Source: a virus. From it: a stretch of DNA of 29,674 nt. Below, piece by piece: positions 8,865-22,736 of this stretch; position 1 is the first letter of the stretch, and each line of letters begins with the position of its first letter. The stretch spans positions 1 to 29,674 of IMG/VR virus record IMGVR_UViG_3300042892_004349. One strand, written 5' to 3'. Position numbers and translations under genes: made by a program. The notes below the pieces were generated by a model, which did not search any database, was not told where the DNA came from, and saw nothing but the letters and a program-made list of their open reading frames with translations.

Positions 8865-9551
8865 TTATTTTTGCAATCTTTGTCGTTCTATCAACACATT
8901 AAGATTGTCTTTGGGCTCAAATTTCAATGTCGGATCATCTAAATTTAGAAAACTAGTTTTATCTAATTGACCTATTGTTCCGTCTATCCAAGTATTAAAA
9001 GATAAACTTATTCTATCGGTATCTGCCACAGATCTCATTACAGAATGTTCTAGATAGGACGGAAATATTAATAATGTTCCCTGTTTGATTTCAACAGTAG
9101 TGCTATGAGTGTTATATTGATTATATTTGGTAGGAAACATCTTTAATGGGCCCCAAACACAATTTTTGTCTGTGTGAAATTCAATAGGGGCAGGATCTTC
9201 TGTAAAATATAGAACTCCGCTGACAATACTGTTTACATGATGATGTTGATAATGATATGCGCCTGTTGTGGTGCGATTCAACCAACTGATAGTAGGAAAC
9301 AACTGATTAGGTATAGACATTACCTCTCGAGCATATAGATTCAACTGTGTTTGCACAAAATCACATACTCTCGACATTTCAGGTAAATGTATAATATCAA
9401 ATCTATCCGATCCTACACATCTTCCTGGTTCATCTTTGTATCGAGCATACAAAGATGGTTGTTTTACAAATTCTAATTCTTCGTTGGTAAATCCTTGTAT
9501 TTCTGCAACAAACAACGGTGTTGGAAATAACGGAATAACTTCGTGGGCCAT
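8865..9551 (-). CDS. Putative 2OG-Fe(II) oxygenase (TIGR02466-like)
   Basis: 228 residues. The start (HEVIPLFPTPLFVAEIQGF) and the core GAYHYQHHHVNSIVSGVLYF, then a GTLLIFPSYLEHSV strand and RISLSFN, follow the TIGR02466/2OG-FeII_Oxy_5 pattern. The proximal His residues lie in HYQHHH, the distal His in LEHSV, and the 2OG-binding Arg in DRISLSF. Such proteins are predicted cytoplasmic hydroxylases using Fe(II), O2 and 2-oxoglutarate; no substrate is known. AAGG seven bases before the ATG is a fair ribosome binding site. It is the last gene of a minus-strand run headed by the rubrerythrin-like gene. Confidence 0.8.
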   Translation of the reverse strand: MAHEVIPLFPTPLFVAEIQGFTNEELEFVKQPSLYARYKDEPGRCVGSDRFDIIHLPEMSRVCDFVQTQLNLYAREVMSIPNQLFPTISWLNRTTTGAYHYQHHHVNSIVSGVLYFTEDPAPIEFHTDKNCVWGPLKMFPTKYNQYNTHSTTVEIKQGTLLIFPSYLEHSVMRSVADTDRISLSFNTWIDGTIGQLDKTSFLNLDDPTLKFEPKDNLNVLIERQRLQK

Positions 9552-9561
9552 TGAATATACC

Positions 9562-10083
9562 TTATTTAAATTTTAAATCAAAGCCAATTATAGTTTTGAT
9601 TTTGTGTGAATTATTAGGCAACGTATAGTGTAAAATATTACTGGGTACAATAATCATTGATCCTTCGCTGGCTTTAATTTGCTTTATCTCTGTTTGATCA
9701 GTTATGGGGTCATTTGTAGGGTTAATGAAATAAGTCGGGCTGTGCAAGGTTTCATTGTAATCTAAATATATGATTCCGGAATAGCCCACACCCGAATGAT
9801 TGTGAGGGATATGAAAATCTCCTTTTGCATAAGATACTGTCCATACGTCGCCTATATCTAATGAGTCTACTTTAATTTCATTTGAAAATAGTGCTAACTC
9901 ATTCTTAAAAATTTCAACAAATTCAGACTGATAGTTGTTATTACCTCGATCGCTTGTGAACAATTGATCAGGTTTTCTTATCAATGATGTGATATTAATT
10001 TTTTCAGAAATTTTTTCTTTCTTTAATTCCCAATCATTTATATAATATCCATAAAATTTTGTTTCAAATAATGTACTTTGCAC
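9562..10083 (-). CDS. Putative 2OG-Fe(II) oxygenase, GTG start
   Basis: 173 residues. The core GDFHIPHNHSGVGYSGIIYL supplies candidate iron ligands (H-x2-H-x-H), followed by a GSMIIVPSNILHYTLPN strand with the distal His and a Lys/Thr-rich last strand. This is a compact double-stranded beta-helix related to its neighbours. It starts with GTG (10083), whose G is shared with the TAG stop of the upstream gene (TAGTG); AGAGG upstream serves as ribosome binding site, indicating translational coupling. It is AT-rich compared with the virion genes. The substrate is unknown. Confidence 0.72.
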   Translation of the reverse strand: MQSTLFETKFYGYYINDWELKKEKISEKINITSLIRKPDQLFTSDRGNNNYQSEFVEIFKNELALFSNEIKVDSLDIGDVWTVSYAKGDFHIPHNHSGVGYSGIIYLDYNETLHSPTYFINPTNDPITDQTEIKQIKASEGSMIIVPSNILHYTLPNNSHKIKTIIGFDLKFK

Positions 10084-10854: not shown

Positions 10855-11409
10855 TTAACTCAAAACAGAGTTGTTGTCAACACCCCAGACATTTTGACAA
10901 ATAATTTCCATGTTAATAGAAACTCTATAATCTAAAGAGAATGATTGATGAGGCTGATGGTTAAGATATCCTGGAAAAATAATCAAATCACCAACTTCGG
11001 GTTTTATATTATAGATTTCATGAAAGTTATTATCATAAAAACTTAGAGACCCTTGATGTCTATCTGCAGTCTCGGGTATATTCAAATAGTAAACAGCATT
11101 AATTACACAGGTATTTAGGTGATTATGGATGCCGCCTTTATAAAAAAATTTATTTGTAACATATCCCCAGCAGTTGGCAAGATTTCTTTGATCTAGTTGT
11201 AGTGGACCAAAATGCTGACTGGCAATGCGAAAAAAATCTTTGTATAAGGTATAAAATACACCGGAAGAATCTTTGATTTGAAAATTGTTTCCGGTTGTAT
11301 AATTAGCCGTTTGGTGTGCTGCTAACACCTGAGTCTTCATCCAATCAATTGGATAAGATTTTAAACCTTGGTGTAGAAATATTGGTAGATTTAAGTCTAT
11401 TTGATTCAT
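10855..11409 (-). CDS. Putative 2OG-Fe(II) oxygenase
   Basis: 184 residues. It has the metal-site pattern KGGIHNHLNTCVINAVYYLN, followed by GSLSFYDN, then GDLIIFPGYLNHQPHQSF and YRVSINMEI. The HNH and distal NHQ histidines and the closing Arg fit the Fe(II)/2OG family. It follows the rubrerythrin-like gene by 30 bases and precedes the DUF6065-type gene by 43 bases. No good ribosome binding site precedes ATG 11409. The substrate is unknown. Confidence 0.75.
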   Translation of the reverse strand: MNQIDLNLPIFLHQGLKSYPIDWMKTQVLAAHQTANYTTGNNFQIKDSSGVFYTLYKDFFRIASQHFGPLQLDQRNLANCWGYVTNKFFYKGGIHNHLNTCVINAVYYLNIPETADRHQGSLSFYDNNFHEIYNIKPEVGDLIIFPGYLNHQPHQSFSLDYRVSINMEIICQNVWGVDNNSVLS

Positions 11410-11439: not shown

Positions 11440-11985
11440 TTACCAATCTGCGCGAAGTTCTGGATTCGGTGTAGCAGGATCGTAGTATTTTAATAGGTCT
11501 TCAAATGATTTTTTATGGGCAGCTGATCTTCTTGATACTTCAATAAACCATTCTGCTAAATGCAGTAAATTTTCTTCTCGAGCATCGTTTGCATATTTTA
11601 TATACATCTCAGCCGATGCTTGCATTTCAGCAGCAATTGCAGTTTCTAATACCTGGGTAATATGTGTAGATGGTTTTCCGGTATCCGGGTCTCCTAACCC
11701 ACCCAATATGGCTTCTTTTAAATGTCCTTGAGCAAACGTGTGTTTGTCTTCAGCAATCTGTTTAAAATAGGCTGTGGCATTTGCATCTTCATGTTTTTCA
11801 GCTACGGTGGCGAAATAATGATATCTATCATTAGATCGTGCCTCGGCAGCAAATGCCAGTTTAAGATTAGCTGCCGTTTTGCCTTCTAAAGGCACCGGTA
11901 TAGCCAACGGTGTATTTGGATTAAGATCTGGAGGTGCAACTAGTGGTTCTTGGTAGCCTTCTGGGGCTGGTAATATTGTGTTCAT
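11440..11985 (-). CDS. Rubrerythrin-like ferritin-fold protein with altered diiron ligands
   Basis: 181 residues: a Pro-rich 35-residue N-terminus, then four ferritin-type helices. Helix 1 (FAAEARSNDRYHYFATVAEK) closely matches rubrerythrin, with Glu48 in the first ligand position, and helix 2 has E79-x2-H82. Helix 3 keeps Glu120, but the rubrerythrin partner three residues on is Ala123. Helix 4 keeps His157, but the expected Glu three residues before it is Ser154. No rubredoxin domain is present (no CxxC). Rubrerythrins reduce peroxide or bind iron; with two carboxylates lost, peroxidase activity is doubtful and iron storage or delivery is possible. AGGAG nine bases before the ATG and a consensus TATAAATA make it the best-expressed-looking gene of the cluster and its likely first gene. 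Confidence 0.85.
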   Translation of the reverse strand: MNTILPAPEGYQEPLVAPPDLNPNTPLAIPVPLEGKTAANLKLAFAAEARSNDRYHYFATVAEKHEDANATAYFKQIAEDKHTFAQGHLKEAILGGLGDPDTGKPSTHITQVLETAIAAEMQASAEMYIKYANDAREENLLHLAEWFIEVSRRSAAHKKSFEDLLKYYDPATPNPELRADW

Positions 11986-12029: not shown

Positions 12030-12629
12030 TTACGCACTGATCACAAGAGTGTTATTATTGAAATTACCTTTGATGAAAGTATTAAAAGAAATACTCAATC
12101 TTTCATTGTTTGTGGTATTTACAGGCACGCTGTGATAAAGGTTAGAAGGAAAAAGTATTAACATTGCATCTTCAACAGGAATCTGCCATTCTATGCTGTT
12201 AAATGGTGTGCGTTCGCTGCACTCAAACTCCATGAAAAACGGTGATGTTAGCCTGTTGAAACAAATAGAATTTTCACTATCTGCAACATTCACGTAGTAT
12301 ACTCCTGAAATCACGCTATTCCTGTGATTGTGCAGATCGTGCGGTTGTCCTTTTTTATTTTGATTTTTCCAAGAATTTGTCATATAGAATTGACAGTCAG
12401 TTTTGATCACTTCTCTAGCATAATTGTGTACGTGTTCCATGAATATGTTTTTCAAATCTGAGAATACCGTGTCATCAAGTAGAGAGGAATTAACAGATGT
12501 TTGATTGCCTTGTCTACTTATAGAGGTTACATTATTAGTGTCATACGCAATTCGTTCAGGTGCTGATAACTTTCTAAGATTGATTCTATAGATAGCTGCA
12601 GGAAAAATTGGAATAATTTGTGGATTCAT
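12030..12629 (-). CDS. Putative 2OG-Fe(II) oxygenase (TIGR02466-like)
   Basis: 199 residues. The start NPQIIPIFPAAIYRINL, the metal site HDLHNHRNSVISGVYYVN, a LILFPSNLYHSVPVN strand and ERLSISFNTFIKG match the TIGR02466-type oxygenase and resemble the genes at 8865-9551 and 22137-22736. All three expected elements (His pair, distal His, closing Arg) are present. A TAAATA element at 12654-12659 may be its own promoter. The substrate is unknown. Confidence 0.8.
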   Translation of the reverse strand: MNPQIIPIFPAAIYRINLRKLSAPERIAYDTNNVTSISRQGNQTSVNSSLLDDTVFSDLKNIFMEHVHNYAREVIKTDCQFYMTNSWKNQNKKGQPHDLHNHRNSVISGVYYVNVADSENSICFNRLTSPFFMEFECSERTPFNSIEWQIPVEDAMLILFPSNLYHSVPVNTTNNERLSISFNTFIKGNFNNNTLVISA

Positions 12630-12725: not shown

Positions 12726-14372
12726 TTAAATACTGCCGAAGTTCTTGATTGTAATGACACCTATCATGCTAGGATGAGCACTGCACTGATATCTATAGTT
12801 GCCACTAATACTATCCGGAATTTTCCAGTATAGTGTTCCTGCAGTTTTACCTTGAGCAGATGATTCTGTAGTCACTGTTCCTCCTGCGGTTACGTGAATT
12901 AACCCAGTGTTGTAATTGGCGCCTGCACTATCCTGTATCAAGAAAGGATGACCCCCTACATTGAGATTGAATGCTATGGTAGTGCCGTTGATAGCATATA
13001 TTGTAGGATCGTCAGTAGTGCCATATTGATCAAATCTGTATGCAGTAGCACCGTTGTTGGTAACTGTTAACATTGTAATTGCAGGCAGATAAATTTTGTC
13101 TATGGTAGTACTGGCGACATCAGTCAGTGCGGCAAATGTAGTGGCTCCTGAACTTACTGTGCTGGTGATTGTTACAGTGTCTGTGCCAGCATTGGTAGTT
13201 ATTGAGATACCAGTGCCAGCCGCTAGGGTCAATGTGTCTGTAGCGGTATCTGCTTCAACATTTGACTGTCCAGCCACTGCCACAATGCTAAAAGTATTTT
13301 GACTCGAACCCGAATTGGTTATAGTGATAGAATCTGTGCCAGCATCTGTTGTGAGAGTTATTCCAGTACCCGCTACCAGTGTTAGGGTATCTGTGGCCGA
13401 ATCTGCCACTACTGAACTCTGTCCTGCGACAGCTATGGTGGCAAAACTGTCTGATGTTGCGCCACCAGAAACTATAGCCCACGTGTTATCTCCTCTTAGA
13501 TACGTAGTAGCATCTCTTGTACCCGATGAGCCTAATCTCAAAACCGGAACCGTGCCGCTGCCTAGATTTGTGGCATTTAGGGCAGTGAGATTTATGCCAC
13601 TGGCGGCTGGCAGTGTAGCTGGAAAACGTGCATCAGGCACAGTACCACTAGTAAGTTGATTAGCGTTGAGTGCGGTTAAATTAATACCTGAACTTGCAGG
13701 TAATGTGGCTGGAAAACGTGCATCAGGTATAGTGCCACTAGTAAGTTGAGTAGCGTTGAGTGCAGTTATTAAACTGCCATCACCACTGAAGTTGGTAGCA
13801 GTAAGTAATCCTGCATCGTTGATACTGGCTGAGCTGACTTTGATAGTTGTGCCGCTAGTGCCACTGTATCTAACTATGGCATTATCAACATAGCTACCTA
13901 ACACAGAATTTACATCGCCTGAACCGCTACCACTTGCGCCGGGTGGTCCTTCTGGTCCTGCTGGTCCTTGCACTGTGGCTGTGGTTTGAACAGTATTATC
14001 TGGAAATCTCAAGGTGCCGCCTAACACCAGATTAGGAGTTATGGTTATGGGATTGGCATTAGTAACGTTGAGAGTAGTGTTTACGATGGTTATATTACCA
14101 GTGGAAGCCACGGAAGTCAAAGTTATAGTATCAGTAGATGCATTAGTTGTGATAGCAATACCAGTACCTGCTACTAGTGTTAGTGTATCAGTGGCTGTAT
14201 CTGCTATCACAGTTGGTTGTCCTGCTACGACCAAGTTGGTAAAACTAGGCGAAGTTGAAAAATCAAATCCACTGCTGATCACATTCCAGGCAGTGCCGTT
14301 ATAACGCCACGATTTTTGATCAATGGTATAGACTTCGTTGAGTGCTGGGCTATTAGGAAAATTTATAGGCAT
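12726..14372 (-). CDS. Repeat-rich tail fibre with collagen-like stretch and C-terminal cupredoxin domain
   Basis: 548 residues. The N-terminus (PALNEVYTIDQKSWRYNG) is a short structural-protein motif. Three copies of a ~44-residue beta repeat (AGQ..V.AD.ATDTLTL.AGTGI) lie at about 44-87, 310-352 and 361-403. Residues 136-147 are Gly-X-Y triplets (GPAGPEGPPGAS), a collagen-like trimer element. Two 30-residue repeats (TSGT.PDARFPATLPA) lie at about 204-263. The C-terminal ~115 residues look like a blue-copper cupredoxin: His475 (GGHPF), then Cys530, His533 and Met536 in YQCSAHPSM, with amicyanin-like C-x2-H-x2-M spacing. Similar C-terminal domains recur in marine phage fibre-like proteins. It is probably a distal or side fibre. 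Its promoter element overlaps the subtilase stop. Confidence 0.85.
   Translation of the reverse strand: MPINFPNSPALNEVYTIDQKSWRYNGTAWNVISSGFDFSTSPSFTNLVVAGQPTVIADTATDTLTLVAGTGIAITTNASTDTITLTSVASTGNITIVNTTLNVTNANPITITPNLVLGGTLRFPDNTVQTTATVQGPAGPEGPPGASGSGSGDVNSVLGSYVDNAIVRYSGTSGTTIKVSSASINDAGLLTATNFSGDGSLITALNATQLTSGTIPDARFPATLPASSGINLTALNANQLTSGTVPDARFPATLPAASGINLTALNATNLGSGTVPVLRLGSSGTRDATTYLRGDNTWAIVSGGATSDSFATIAVAGQSSVVADSATDTLTLVAGTGITLTTDAGTDSITITNSGSSQNTFSIVAVAGQSNVEADTATDTLTLAAGTGISITTNAGTDTVTITSTVSSGATTFAALTDVASTTIDKIYLPAITMLTVTNNGATAYRFDQYGTTDDPTIYAINGTTIAFNLNVGGHPFLIQDSAGANYNTGLIHVTAGGTVTTESSAQGKTAGTLYWKIPDSISGNYRYQCSAHPSMIGVITIKNFGSI
13561..13770 (-). repeat. 90-bp tandem repeat in the fibre gene
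   Basis: Bases 13618-13678 and 13708-13768 are nearly identical at a 90-base offset, with only a few mismatches, and a third, more diverged unit lies towards 13561. They encode the 30-residue fibre repeat and could change copy number by recombination. Confidence 0.8.
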
Positions 14373-14390: not shown

Positions 14391-14398
14391 TATTTATC
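14391..14398 (-). promoter_or_regulatory. Late promoter element for the cupredoxin fibre gene
   Basis: GATAAATA on the minus strand overlaps the TGA stop (14397-14399) of the subtilase gene, 18 bases before ATG 14372. GAGA between them may serve as a weak ribosome binding site. Confidence 0.5.
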
Positions 14399-16427
14399 AA
14401 CGACCTAATCTCAGTTTTAGACCGCTGGTAATATTGAGATTAGACATAATTTTTCTTGATCCTAGTTTAAATCTAGCGTCAATCTGCCCTTGGTAAATCA
14501 CTCGAGCATCGCCTCCTTCGAGACTTTCGTAGTCCAACCAATTGGCTGTATTAACTGTGGTTGATTCTGTACCAAAGTAAAAATCGGCAGCGTCCTGTGT
14601 TTCTAGCGATTGTAACCAGGTTTTGACTTCCACCCAGGTCCAGTCCCTATTCCATTCCAACACTGTGGCTATAAACCCTGTGGCTACAGGACAGGCAGCA
14701 CTGGTGCCGCTAAAAGCAGCGTCAGTGGTATTGCCGGAATTGTAACTTAGAGCAGCATAGGTATCGGGTCTTGGCCAGTTTGTGGCATAGCCTCTATTGG
14801 CTGCCAAGGTGCCATCTGCAGGGGCATACACATCTATGCTGTTTCCTCTATCGCTGTAAGAAACTTTGGCTTCTTTTGAAGTTTTATAATCGTCGTCTAG
14901 TGCTCCAATGTTGATCACAGGATAAATCACTGTGCCATTGGCATCGGTGTATTTGCCGCCTTGTTGGGGGAATCCTCGGCGATTTGTTGTGCCAAATACT
15001 GGAATCCCAAACTCACTGAACGTGGAATTGGCCAGCGTTCCTCCAGGAGCATTAGTAATAAAATTGTTGTAGTCAGGGTGACTGCTGTTGACCTGTTTTT
15101 GATTGCTGTTACCGGAAGCTGCAACAAAAATTACTCCGGCAGTAATCAGTTCCTCTTGCGCTGTGGTCAGTGAATTTGTTTTCATTTCACTTTTCCATCG
15201 GCCGCTATCGCCCTGTGTGCCCATGTGGCTTAACCAATTTATACCTGTTTCAGTGGTGTAGGAAGTGTTGCTTGTTGATCGATGAGTGTAATAATATGTT
15301 AGCCCGCCGGGGGCTTTGTCAGCACGATAACCCCAGCTATTGCTTGTTATTGTGGGATTTCTAGTGTTAAAAAGAGTGTTCACTGGCTTCACACTATGGA
15401 ATATTTTCATTATATCGAATCCCTGTTCTATTCCCGAACCATAACTACCGTAAAGATCCAATACCCATTTGTTAGAGTTATACGCCCACCCTTGTGTTCT
15501 TCCATAGGTCAGTGCAGCACAACAAGTTCCGTGGTCGCCTTCGTTAGATAATGCAGCATTAGTACCATTGCAGTTTGCTCTAGTATAATTAGAAGTAACA
15601 CTCACTGTTCCTGCATTCGCAAACTGTGCGCTACGCAGAATGTTACTTGACCACCACGATCTTGCCACTGACTCCACAGGGACCGTGGTGCCGTCCCATC
15701 TAGTGATTAATCTTGTGGCAGGATCAGCATTGAACCAATCAGGATCAATATAATATGGAGCATCTAGAACTAGATCTAATAAATCACAGGTGCCGTTGCC
15801 TGGTAGAACATTGCCGCCTGTGTATCCGCTGGGTTTTGGCACAGCAGCAAAAGGACTAGAATCAGACAGAGAATTGTTTTGAAATTCTGGGTGGCCGATC
15901 CAGGTGCCGTCATCTGCAACTATGACATCCACGTGCTTGCCCGTGCCGTATTGTGGAATATTGGTATTGACCACTGCGTTGTCAGCCAGTGAATTATCTA
16001 CCCAAGGATCTAATTTCTGTGTGCATCTATACAGCTGATATCCGGTTCTGTTGACATCCGAAGTATCTGGTGTCGCTGCCAGTGTGCCAGAAGCTTCAAA
16101 TTCTCTGTAATTTTTTACAGCAGCAGTATATCTGTTTACTAAATCTGGTCTTACTGAATGTAGTTCGTCAGGCGGTGGCGTAAATTCAGCGTAGCGTTTG
16201 TAATCTATATTGATAAATTTTATTCTTGAATCAGTTTTCAACAGTTCTGCTTCTGCATCTGTGAGTAGATACGTGCCTCGAGTCAAACTGTGCAATTGGT
16301 CATCTACACAGTCTACGGTTCTGTCAGGCACATATTCACTGACTTGACCCGGGCTTGTTAATTCTTCATTTAGCTCATCCCATTCTGCTTCAGTATGAGT
16401 TGCCAGTTGATAATATTTTTTTTCCAT
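14397..16427 (-). CDS. Subtilisin-like serine protease (S8 family), virion-associated candidate
   Basis: 676 residues. The full catalytic set is visible: Asp172 in VIVADDGT, His299 in GDHGTCCAA, oxyanion Asn440 in VAASGNSN and Ser576 in FSGTSAACPVATG. A ~150-residue N-terminal part before the Asp may act as a prodomain. About 125 residues separate Asp and His, longer than in typical subtilisins. The last ~80 residues follow the protease core and end in a basic tail. No signal peptide is seen, so it likely acts in the phage particle or the lysing cell. It follows the upstream fibre-like gene by three bases (TAAGCCATG), implying coupled translation, and precedes the cupredoxin fibre. Possible roles are fibre maturation, cleavage of host surface protein, or self-processing. 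Confidence 0.88.
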   Translation of the reverse strand: MEKKYYQLATHTEAEWDELNEELTSPGQVSEYVPDRTVDCVDDQLHSLTRGTYLLTDAEAELLKTDSRIKFINIDYKRYAEFTPPPDELHSVRPDLVNRYTAAVKNYREFEASGTLAATPDTSDVNRTGYQLYRCTQKLDPWVDNSLADNAVVNTNIPQYGTGKHVDVIVADDGTWIGHPEFQNNSLSDSSPFAAVPKPSGYTGGNVLPGNGTCDLLDLVLDAPYYIDPDWFNADPATRLITRWDGTTVPVESVARSWWSSNILRSAQFANAGTVSVTSNYTRANCNGTNAALSNEGDHGTCCAALTYGRTQGWAYNSNKWVLDLYGSYGSGIEQGFDIMKIFHSVKPVNTLFNTRNPTITSNSWGYRADKAPGGLTYYYTHRSTSNTSYTTETGINWLSHMGTQGDSGRWKSEMKTNSLTTAQEELITAGVIFVAASGNSNQKQVNSSHPDYNNFITNAPGGTLANSTFSEFGIPVFGTTNRRGFPQQGGKYTDANGTVIYPVINIGALDDDYKTSKEAKVSYSDRGNSIDVYAPADGTLAANRGYATNWPRPDTYAALSYNSGNTTDAAFSGTSAACPVATGFIATVLEWNRDWTWVEVKTWLQSLETQDAADFYFGTESTTVNTANWLDYESLEGGDARVIYQGQIDARFKLGSRKIMSNLNITSGLKLRLGR

Positions 16428-16430
16428 GGC

Positions 16431-17939
16431 TTAATGCAGATCTACCCAAGCGCCTCCGGCACGTCCTTGAAACTTGCTTGTTGTGGTATTATAGATCATA
16501 TCGCCGTTGACTGCTGTTAGAAGATCTCTTGCTGTAGATGTAAAAGATGCCATTTTCAAAGGACTTGCTGTTATCTCTACACGAGTACCAGCTGTTAATT
16601 GTATTTCATTATCTGAAAATAGTTCAGGTGTTCCAGATCCCTGACTTGAAAAATTGCCAGTCAGTATGATGTCTTTCACAGTCAATCGATTATTCACTGA
16701 CAGATCCAATGCAACGTTGACACTGTTATCTATCACAAGATTATTTTGCACTGTGACATCAGATTCATAAATCACTGCGGGCGTAAATATTATGGCAGAA
16801 GAATCCGATGAGTCTATGGTGGTCACAGCAAAAGTAATGTTACCTGTGGTGCCACCGCCGATGATCGTGATATTGCCTGAGCTGTCAGAGGTAGTAGTTA
16901 TGCCGCCTGAGCCGTTGAATTGCACTGTGCTGCCGGTTGGAATAGATCTTGTTGTAGAGTCATCTGCTTGAACATTTAATACAAACGCACCAGCTGACAC
17001 AGCCGAGGTTACAAATGATGTTGTGGCCAGTCCTGCCGTAGCCGGCAGTGCTGCCACTGTGGAATTTACATAAGATACTGTGGCTAAATTTGTAGTGTCA
17101 GGATAGGGAAATACTGGCTGGATCCACTGTTCAGAATCACCGTCGTCATAGTAAACATACAGTATACCAGTATTGGTATCTAGCCAAAGATTGCCTGGAC
17201 TAGGAGAACTCGGCGCTGTGTCATCTACAGATACACTAGTTCCTCCGCTGGCCTGGCCTGCCCCGTCTTGATATAACACTGTAGGTGCTAAAGGGTCACC
17301 TGAATAGTCTGCAGGAAGATCTGCGGTTGCCGGTACCCAATAAGGATTTGTGCTAAGGGCATATTCTGTAATGTTTGATCCGGTTTGCTGAATCCACACA
17401 GTATATGTAGTGTTTGCTGCCAATGTGACAGCACCGGGATGCAATGGGTTGCCGGCTAATACGTTACTTCCAACAGCAAGCGATGGGTCCCATGGACCAA
17501 GATGTCCGTAGGTTAACATTTGATTTACATCTTGACCAGCAGTCCATGCTGTGCCTTGTTGAATAGCAAAGAATGCTTTTAGGTCAACCCCTACGTATTT
17601 TGTTAGATACAATGCTGCAATGCTATTGGTACCCACTGTAAATGTTACATAGTCTTTGTCGCCCGAAATCAAATTGCTATTTACAACAGTATTATGTATG
17701 TGAATATTTGGGCCAAACAGTCTAGAGCTACTAGCTAGACTCACAAAGTCTGTTTCTAAAATATTGGACAGATCGCCTTTGGCTAAATTTAGTCCGCCAA
17801 CGGTGGATCCGTTATAAATTCTAAGAGTATTAGCTGTTTGATCGTAGAAAATTTCACCTCTTAAACCTGATTTTCTGTTAAGGAAATCAGCTTCTCTAGG
17901 GATTATTCTCACTGCATCGGATACGGTTATTTTGGCCAT
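16431..17939 (-). CDS. Tail fibre / virion structural protein
   Basis: 502 residues from ATG 17939 (MAKITVSDAVRIIPREADFL). A start at 17981 would place the late promoter element inside the coding region, so the shorter form is preferred. The N-terminal segment RGEIFYDQTANTLRIYNG and the mid segment SPGNLWLDTNTGILYVYYDD are modules typical of marine phage fibre and baseplate-associated proteins. The rest is Ser/Thr/Gly/Val-rich beta-repeat sequence, and the C-terminus (DLLTAVNGDMIYNTTTSKFQ, then GRAGGAWVDLH) is another common fibre motif. It is first in a minus-strand unit with the subtilase gene. No receptor-binding domain is recognised. Confidence 0.75.
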   Translation of the reverse strand: MAKITVSDAVRIIPREADFLNRKSGLRGEIFYDQTANTLRIYNGSTVGGLNLAKGDLSNILETDFVSLASSSRLFGPNIHIHNTVVNSNLISGDKDYVTFTVGTNSIAALYLTKYVGVDLKAFFAIQQGTAWTAGQDVNQMLTYGHLGPWDPSLAVGSNVLAGNPLHPGAVTLAANTTYTVWIQQTGSNITEYALSTNPYWVPATADLPADYSGDPLAPTVLYQDGAGQASGGTSVSVDDTAPSSPSPGNLWLDTNTGILYVYYDDGDSEQWIQPVFPYPDTTNLATVSYVNSTVAALPATAGLATTSFVTSAVSAGAFVLNVQADDSTTRSIPTGSTVQFNGSGGITTTSDSSGNITIIGGGTTGNITFAVTTIDSSDSSAIIFTPAVIYESDVTVQNNLVIDNSVNVALDLSVNNRLTVKDIILTGNFSSQGSGTPELFSDNEIQLTAGTRVEITASPLKMASFTSTARDLLTAVNGDMIYNTTTSKFQGRAGGAWVDLH

Positions 17940-17961
17940 TGATGTTTTTATATTAGTAAAG

Positions 17962-17969
17962 TATTTATT
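17962..17969 (-). promoter_or_regulatory. Late promoter element for the fibre-subtilase unit
   Basis: AATAAATA on the minus strand, 22 bases before ATG 17939 and inside the alternative longer reading frame. This supports the shorter start. Confidence 0.5.
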
Positions 17970-17990
17970 GAAAAATGTCATCTATGTGTC

Positions 17991-18630: not shown

Positions 18631-19260
18631 ATGACCGTGATAATAAACAATTTTTTCCCTGGAGAACTACAACCTAGCACAATAATAGGAGGTTGTATTG
18701 CTATTTACGAAAATGTTTGGCCGAATCCAGAGAACACTATCAAGATGGTAGAAAATGCAGCGTCTGATTCAGATTCCGGAGTGCATTGGCAACGAGCCGA
18801 AACCACCCAGGAAGGAGCAAATCAAACTCACAGAACAAACAAAATGATGGGTATTACACATTTAGCAGGAATTACCAATAACGCTGTATTACAAAATGTC
18901 CATAATCAGTTCTATATGTTGTTGTTGGCGGCATCAATTCCCTATGCCAAAAGATTTAATATCAAAGAAGGTCTATGGCACGAACATTATCAAATGTTAA
19001 AATATGATCAAGGCGAGGAATATAAAGGTCACTATGATGGTGGGACTCCAATAGGAAGATCAATATCTTGCCTATGCTATCTAAACGACGATTTCGAAGG
19101 CGGTGAATTAGAGTTTCCTAATTTTCACGTGAAAATCAAACCCGAACCCGGAATGTTAGTTTTGTTTCCGTCTAATTATGCTTATCTACACATTGCACAT
19201 CCAGTAACTGCTGGCACAAAATACAGTATGGTAACGTGGATCAAGGATAGAGAAATATAA
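18631..19260 (+). CDS. Prolyl-4-hydroxylase-like 2OG-Fe(II) oxygenase
   Basis: 209 residues. It carries the clearest oxygenase motif set in the window: the H-x-D pair in YKGHYDGGTPIGRSISCLCY, the GGELEFPNFHVKIKPEPGML strand pair, the distal His in LHIAHPV and the 2OG-binding Lys in TKYSMVTWIKD. This is the layout of the P4H-type superfamily, whose members hydroxylate proline or other protein residues. The substrate here is unknown. It is first in a six-gene operon, with its own late promoter-like element and an AAGGA ribosome binding site, and one base separates its stop from the next ATG. Confidence 0.85.
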   Translation: MTVIINNFFPGELQPSTIIGGCIAIYENVWPNPENTIKMVENAASDSDSGVHWQRAETTQEGANQTHRTNKMMGITHLAGITNNAVLQNVHNQFYMLLLAASIPYAKRFNIKEGLWHEHYQMLKYDQGEEYKGHYDGGTPIGRSISCLCYLNDDFEGGELEFPNFHVKIKPEPGMLVLFPSNYAYLHIAHPVTAGTKYSMVTWIKDREI

Positions 19261-21453: not shown

Positions 21454-22140
21454 ATGAATAATTTAACTACTCAACTTGATTTTAAAAACAACGGATATTG
21501 CATAGTTCGATCTGCAATTTCTACAGAACTAAGAGATTTTGTTACTCAATATGCGCTGTTTGACGAAATGCAGGATTTTACTCCGGAAAAGGCCATGATG
21601 GGCAACGGAGCTCAGTGTGCTGAAGCTCATTCAAAATACTGTGATCCTGCAATGGAAAGCATGTTGTTGCATCTGCAACCTGTGCTAGAACAAGCAGTGG
21701 GATTTTCTCTGTTTCCGACTTATTGCTATTATAGAATTTATAGAAACGGTGACGAACTTACTCCTCATGTAGATAGACCGGCCTGTGAAATTTCTGCAAC
21801 TCTGTGTTTCAATTTCAATTACAATGTTGACAACGTTTGGTCAATATACATGGGCGGTAATCAAGTAGATCTACTACCCGGTGACCTAGCAATTTATCGA
21901 GGCTGCGATGTCCCTCATTGGCGAGAGCCGTTTGATAAAGGTCAAGATGCTTGGCAAGTGCAGGCTTTCTTTCATTATGTAGATGAGCATGGACCAAATG
22001 CAGAATGGAAATGGGACAAACGTGATTCTCTAGGTATGCTAGGCTCAGGTCCTAGTCTAGAACTGCTGCAGGAATATAAAGCATCTACTAAACCTAATGA
22101 TGCTGCGGCTGAGAAATCCTATATAACATACACCAAATGA
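21454..22140 (+). CDS. 2OG-Fe(II) oxygenase-like protein
   Basis: 228 residues. The N-terminus NGYCIVRSAISTELRDFVTQ is typical of phytanoyl/prolyl-hydroxylase-like proteins. The metal site is H-x-D in ELTPHVDRPACEISATLCF, with the distal His in YRGCDVPHWREPF and a closing QVQAFFHYVDEHGPN strand. The usual Arg/Lys that binds 2OG is not obvious in that strand (Gln present), so the 2OG pocket may differ. It lies six bases after the previous stop and overlaps the next gene by four bases (ATGA). Confidence 0.8.
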   Translation: MNNLTTQLDFKNNGYCIVRSAISTELRDFVTQYALFDEMQDFTPEKAMMGNGAQCAEAHSKYCDPAMESMLLHLQPVLEQAVGFSLFPTYCYYRIYRNGDELTPHVDRPACEISATLCFNFNYNVDNVWSIYMGGNQVDLLPGDLAIYRGCDVPHWREPFDKGQDAWQVQAFFHYVDEHGPNAEWKWDKRDSLGMLGSGPSLELLQEYKASTKPNDAAAEKSYITYTK

Positions 22141-22736
22141 TTGACGGTTGGTTTCCTACACTGATCTACAATGATACATTGAATTTTCAACATAGACAGT
22201 ATCTTGTAAACAAGGCAAAGACTATATATTCTCAGACTCAGGGTCATACTGTTACTAAGTGGGCGTGTGATACCTACAATACTGTGGGATTTTATGATCA
22301 TAGATCTGATCAAGACACTGTGGTTCTATCCTTGATTGAACTGCTTCGAACCAAAGTACACGAATTTGGTAAAAACTACGGCATTAATCTTCCCATCGAA
22401 ACTCTTTACTGCAAAGACTTTTGGTTTAATCTTGCAGAACCGGGTGCTTATCAAGAATATCATCAGCACACACGATCTCATTTCAGTGTTAGTTACTATC
22501 TGTCTGTGTTAGAAAATTGTGGGAAAATTCGGTTTAGAAGCATAGAAGCTATGACTGACATGTATACTCTTCCGGTGGAAAGCAATCTTGAAAATTTTGC
22601 TAGCAGAAAAACCTGTGCATATGAACCAGTAGAAGATTTGCTTTTGATATTTAGATCTAATGTTCCGCACATGGTGGAAAAAAATCACAGTGAAGATCTC
22701 AGGATCAGCATTAGTGCAAACTTTGAATATGCCTAG
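22137..22736 (+). CDS. Putative 2OG-Fe(II) oxygenase (TIGR02466-like)
   Basis: 199 residues. The start DGWFPTLIYNDTLNF, the core GAYQEYHQHTRSHFSVSYYL, LLLIFRSNVPHMVEKN and LRISISANF match the TIGR02466-type oxygenases seen on the other strand at 8865-9551 and 12030-12629. The iron His pair is in EYHQH, the distal His in VPHMV and the Arg in LRISIS. It is last in the operon, and the next gene converges eight bases away. Confidence 0.8.
   Translation: MIDGWFPTLIYNDTLNFQHRQYLVNKAKTIYSQTQGHTVTKWACDTYNTVGFYDHRSDQDTVVLSLIELLRTKVHEFGKNYGINLPIETLYCKDFWFNLAEPGAYQEYHQHTRSHFSVSYYLSVLENCGKIRFRSIEAMTDMYTLPVESNLENFASRKTCAYEPVEDLLLIFRSNVPHMVEKNHSEDLRISISANFEYA

Follow-up and report, generated by a model that had tools for sequence, protein, structure and literature searches.

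A candidate type-1 copper domain of the cupredoxin fold at the C terminus of a T4-like phage tail adhesin

The window analyzed here, a virus record of 29,674 nucleotides (29.7 kb), carries a tail gene whose product raises the question of whether a phage adhesin ends in a blue-copper domain, and what such a domain would do there. Genes for tail sheath, neck, and sheath-stabilizer-like proteins assign the fragment to a T4-like contractile-tailed phage; the nearest database relatives of its tail sheath were from large phages such as Atu_ph07, and window-related contigs reached up to 282 kb. The 548-aa tail protein is composed of N-terminal repeats, a short collagen-like stretch, and the C-terminal cupredoxin domain, which makes up its last ~115 residues. 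Its best stretch of similarity to phrog_677 ("baseplate wedge tail fiber protein connector") spans residues 355 to 545. The residue numbers H475, C530, H533, and M536 assigned to the copper ligands in the preliminary description, and their C-x2-H-x2-M spacing, are exact on the translated open reading frame 12726-14372. None of the other long open reading frames of the window carries a C-x(2-4)-H-x(2-4)-M motif. The features are listed in Table 1.

Table 1. Features of the tail adhesin locus, with positions in the window
Feature	Position	Strand	Basis
Tail fiber/adhesin protein, 548 aa	12726..14372	-	ORF and translation; PHROG phrog_677, E 7.5e-42
Collagen-like stretch, short, GPAGPEGPPGASG (residues 136-148)	13929..13967	-	Sequence
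Cupredoxin domain, candidate type-1 copper domain (residues 425-548)	12729..13100	-	AlphaFold2, Foldseek, VIA
His475, first candidate copper ligand (GGHPF)	12948..12950	-	Invariant column; profile alignment
Cys530, candidate thiolate ligand	12783..12785	-	Invariant column
His533, second candidate His ligand	12774..12776	-	Invariant column
Met536, candidate axial ligand	12765..12767	-	Invariant column
S8 subtilase gene, directly upstream of the tail gene	14397..16427	-	PF00082, E 2.4e-20
N-terminal half of split adhesin (tail fiber gene)	16431..17981	-	Homologous to part of ~700 aa genes

The AlphaFold2 model of the domain (pLDDT 93.9, pTM 0.87) was a cupredoxin, i.e., a Greek-key beta-sandwich. 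Foldseek searches with this model retrieved amicyanin, rusticyanin, plastocyanin, CuA domains, and laccases, all with probability 1.00. The best VIA-align match was NirK (Z 12.1; rmsd 2.7 Å over 112 residues), although a type-2 site is not expected in the window domain; identity to the NirK cupredoxin domains was ~9 to 15%. The profile built from 14 relatives matched NirK (E 5e-7), amicyanin (E 1.6e-5), and plastocyanin (E 7e-5) in the PDB, as well as pseudoazurin and rusticyanin, with E values from 5e-7 to 1e-2, and nearly all of its matches were type-1 or CuA copper proteins. With the single sequence, phmmer gave a weak match to amicyanin (E 0.017), and the match to Pfam PF00127 (Copper-bind; E 0.056, 14.3 bits) was below the gathering cutoff of 21.2, so the assignment is based on profile and structure. 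Judged by fold and ligands, the domain belongs to the cupredoxin superfamily; its score is too low for formal membership in PF00127. The cupredoxin fold proposed in the preliminary description is thus supported by the model, the structure searches, and the PDB profile matches. In BFVD, giant-virus proteins named "beta-sandwich" and "blue type 1 copper" matched the domain model as well.

In the profile alignments, the histidine of the window HPF motif (His475) matched, without gaps, the copper-ligand histidine of pseudoazurin 3tu6, and also that of the NirK entries 2vmj and 6hbe; the amicyanin alignment slipped by ~2 residues. Cys530 is located at a strand end in the AlphaFold2 model, His533 and Met536 lie within the next loop, and His475 stands just ahead of a strand. 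The ligands of blue-copper proteins are placed in the same way relative to the strands and the loop. Neither the profile alignments nor the strand topology indicated a fold separating His475 from Cys530, His533, and Met536. The complete candidate type-1 site described earlier was therefore recovered, with four ligands at homologous positions and His475 aligned to a known copper histidine, and it is very probable that the domain is a cupredoxin with the type-1 ligands intact. It has the fold and the four ligands in common with amicyanin, plastocyanin, pseudoazurin, and rusticyanin (PF00127), and its C-x2-H-x2-M spacing is that of amicyanin. In contrast to these type-1 cupredoxins, it ends a virion tail protein, has "HPF" in place of "PHN/GHN" and a longer His-to-Cys loop, and scores under the Pfam cutoff.

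Conservation was evaluated in the unfiltered alignment of 14 diverse relatives, which are 31 to 43% identical to the window domain except for one close relative, and in a set of 240 domains; the alignment A3, whose members had been filtered on the motif, was left out. Just eight columns were invariant among the 14 relatives, and all four ligands were within them (hypergeometric probability of ~1e-5, with columns that are not strictly independent). The complete H-C-H-M set was present in 191 of the 240 distinct domains of the unfiltered set. About 47 others represent an internal paralogous domain from which Cys, His, and Met have gone together, and a single one (L009) is without both Cys and His, which could be due to a degraded sequence or a sequencing artifact. 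The 47 distinct close relatives had a median dN/dS of 0.10, which indicates purifying selection on the close family. In these 47 relatives, the Cys530 codon changed only synonymously between TGT and TGC and the His533 codon between CAT and CAC, with one exception each (TCT and GAT, respectively, both in L009), and Met536 was kept in all 47. The possibility that the C-x2-H-x2-M motif arose by chance in a common Ig-like fiber domain, for which the sub-threshold Pfam match of the single sequence speaks, was rejected as having a negligible probability, since profile, structure, and conservation all indicate a copper-protein fold.

By tblastn, the domain was found in 287 phage records, nearly all from Synechococcus and Prochlorococcus phages and mostly annotated as gp9 baseplate proteins of T4-like cyanophages, which bears out the recurrence in marine phages that the first reading of the sequence had described. 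In cyanophage isolates, the domain terminates gp9 (baseplate wedge tail-fiber connector) and other tail proteins, and the tail-protein context claimed for the window domain agrees with these annotations. The N terminus of gp9 from phage S-SSM5 is T4 gp9/gp10-like. The gp9 connectors of phrog_677 end in a homologous domain that carries these four ligands too (E 8.5e-30 for the match of the domain alone). The window protein is a different adhesin, with an N terminus that by inspection seems unlike that of T4 gp9; the cyanophage gp9 is ~410 aa long. Cellular homologs were sparse. The genome collection contained five such loci, at least two of which lie among phage-like genes, and one bacterial family had homologs in 2 of 120 genomes. 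Distant relatives within large proteins of Bacteroidetes, Rhodobacteraceae, and Porticoccaceae genomes (L176, L177, and L178) indicate that the domain is not restricted to phages. The gene psbA, a possible clue to the host, was sought in eight related records, which are fragments of little weight, and none was found. Cyanophages carry the plastocyanin gene petE as an auxiliary metabolic gene (PMC2984593). Its product is a type-1 copper protein too, but acts as a free, host-derived electron carrier, while the window domain is part of a virion protein. Hitchhiking of a host-derived plastocyanin was not supported, as the relatives sit in tail and baseplate genes and the sequence is divergent.

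Copper is fairly likely to be bound by the domain in life. Most likely, one copper ion per subunit would be held at His475, Cys530, His533, and Met536. The protein folds in the cytosol, which has little free copper, and for this reason extracellular uptake is proposed, i.e., the site would be loaded outside the cell. The same scarcity, together with the loss of ligands in some family members, would also suit a cupredoxin-fold adhesin that no longer binds copper and whose residues persist through loop packing; this is improbable, considering that the ligand quartet is kept at 31 to 43% identity while most other columns have changed.

The domain has about an even chance of serving the tail protein as a terminal docking or adhesin module, and the same balanced judgment applies to the reading as a whole, namely, a domain with an intact type-1 site serving as the copper-carrying docking module that ends a T4-like myovirus tail adhesin. 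The domain would most likely act as a rigid module, the loop face of which, with its His, may touch a host-surface component or an adjacent part of the tail fiber. Its C-terminal placement suggests a distal ("tip") position. Because the relatives are mostly gp9 baseplate proteins, a receptor-binding tip is just one possibility, and in the gp9 relatives the domain could equally be located at the joint of baseplate and fiber.

The ligand-free paralog sits inside the gene that follows gp9 in cyanophages (e.g., 8020-8424 in L094, and its paralogs). In this internal domain, Cys, His, and Met are missing and a Trp-His pair is invariant; its model was a cupredoxin all the same, at reduced confidence (pLDDT 87.3, Foldseek probability 1.00, VIA Z of 8.7 at best). 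Since the fold is kept here without ligands, the ligands retained elsewhere were probably preserved for more than the fold alone. This independence of fold and site speaks against a purely structural copper site, where the ion or the packing of the Cys/His/Met loop would confer stability on the terminal domain in sea or lake water. Such a site would be in line with the C-terminal placement (172 of the 289 domain matches reach to 15 aa or less from the end of the protein) and with the structural use of metal in the tail fibers of other phages, the T4 gp37-type tips of which bind iron via HxH (cited in PMC11705849), and it is regarded as rather unlikely. Metal binding in a tail protein would be common to the two cases, but the metal, fold, and ligand set predicted for the window differ from those of the gp37 iron tips.

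A second cupredoxin-like domain, N-terminal and with the motif HPLNF...YYWC-x2-H-x2-M, was observed in the relatives L057 (from 6063 onward), L005, L014, L026, L027, L047, L056, and L067. The window gene at 16431-17981 is without it and has another N-terminal domain, and these N-terminal differences between the window and the L057-type relatives point to apparent module swapping.

Many of the relatives infect cyanobacteria, which possess copper redox partners, and the full type-1 ligand set including the axial Met is conserved. Both observations would fit a function in redox chemistry or metal delivery, either as an electron-transfer copper center or as copper offered to a metal-uptake receptor of the host, a "Ferrojan/Trojan horse" with copper; the iron version of this hypothesis has already been proposed for phage tails (PMC11705849). 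Neighboring 2OG-Fe(II) oxygenase genes and a rubrerythrin-like one, with an unproven link, were the sole candidate redox partners identified in the window, and this function is doubtful. There is a similarly slim prospect that copper-loaded tail tips are functional, with copper gained after lysis and either its occupancy or redox state controlling attachment or triggering at the host surface, or the tail mimicking a copper protein toward a host uptake system.

A literature search in open-access papers returned no report of copper or of a cupredoxin domain in phage tails. With this analysis, a probable fold and homology can be given to a domain for which annotation pipelines offer just the labels "tail fiber connector" or "hypothetical protein." If copper is bound, hundreds of sequenced marine cyanophages would have tail domains of the blue-copper type, copper would join the discussion of iron in phage tails, and copper, chelators, and ligand substitutions would offer a simple handle on the attachment and assembly of abundant viruses.

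The subtilase encoded next to the tail gene has kept the candidate catalytic motifs D172/H299/S576. Subtilase and cupredoxin domain are fused in phrog_9158, whereas the same two modules are encoded by separate neighboring genes in the window; the subtilase gene adjoins the cupredoxin gene in the same order in the isolates S-SSM6a and Sf-CH8. Two layouts were found in the window family: a single gene of ~700 aa with the N-part joined to the cupredoxin C-part, and the window's own arrangement of two genes with the S8 subtilase gene in between.

Six 2OG-Fe(II) oxygenase-like genes form a cluster around the tail fiber genes (8865-9551, 9562-10083, 10855-11409, 12030-12629, 18631-19260, and 22137-22736), and the collagen-like stretch of the fiber is a possible, speculative substrate type for such enzymes. 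The gene at 11440-11985 encodes a rubrerythrin/ferritin-like protein (PF02915, E 1.5e-8). The order of cupredoxin fiber, 2OG oxygenase, rubrerythrin-like, and 2OG oxygenase genes was conserved in the relatives L001, L006, L052, and L057.
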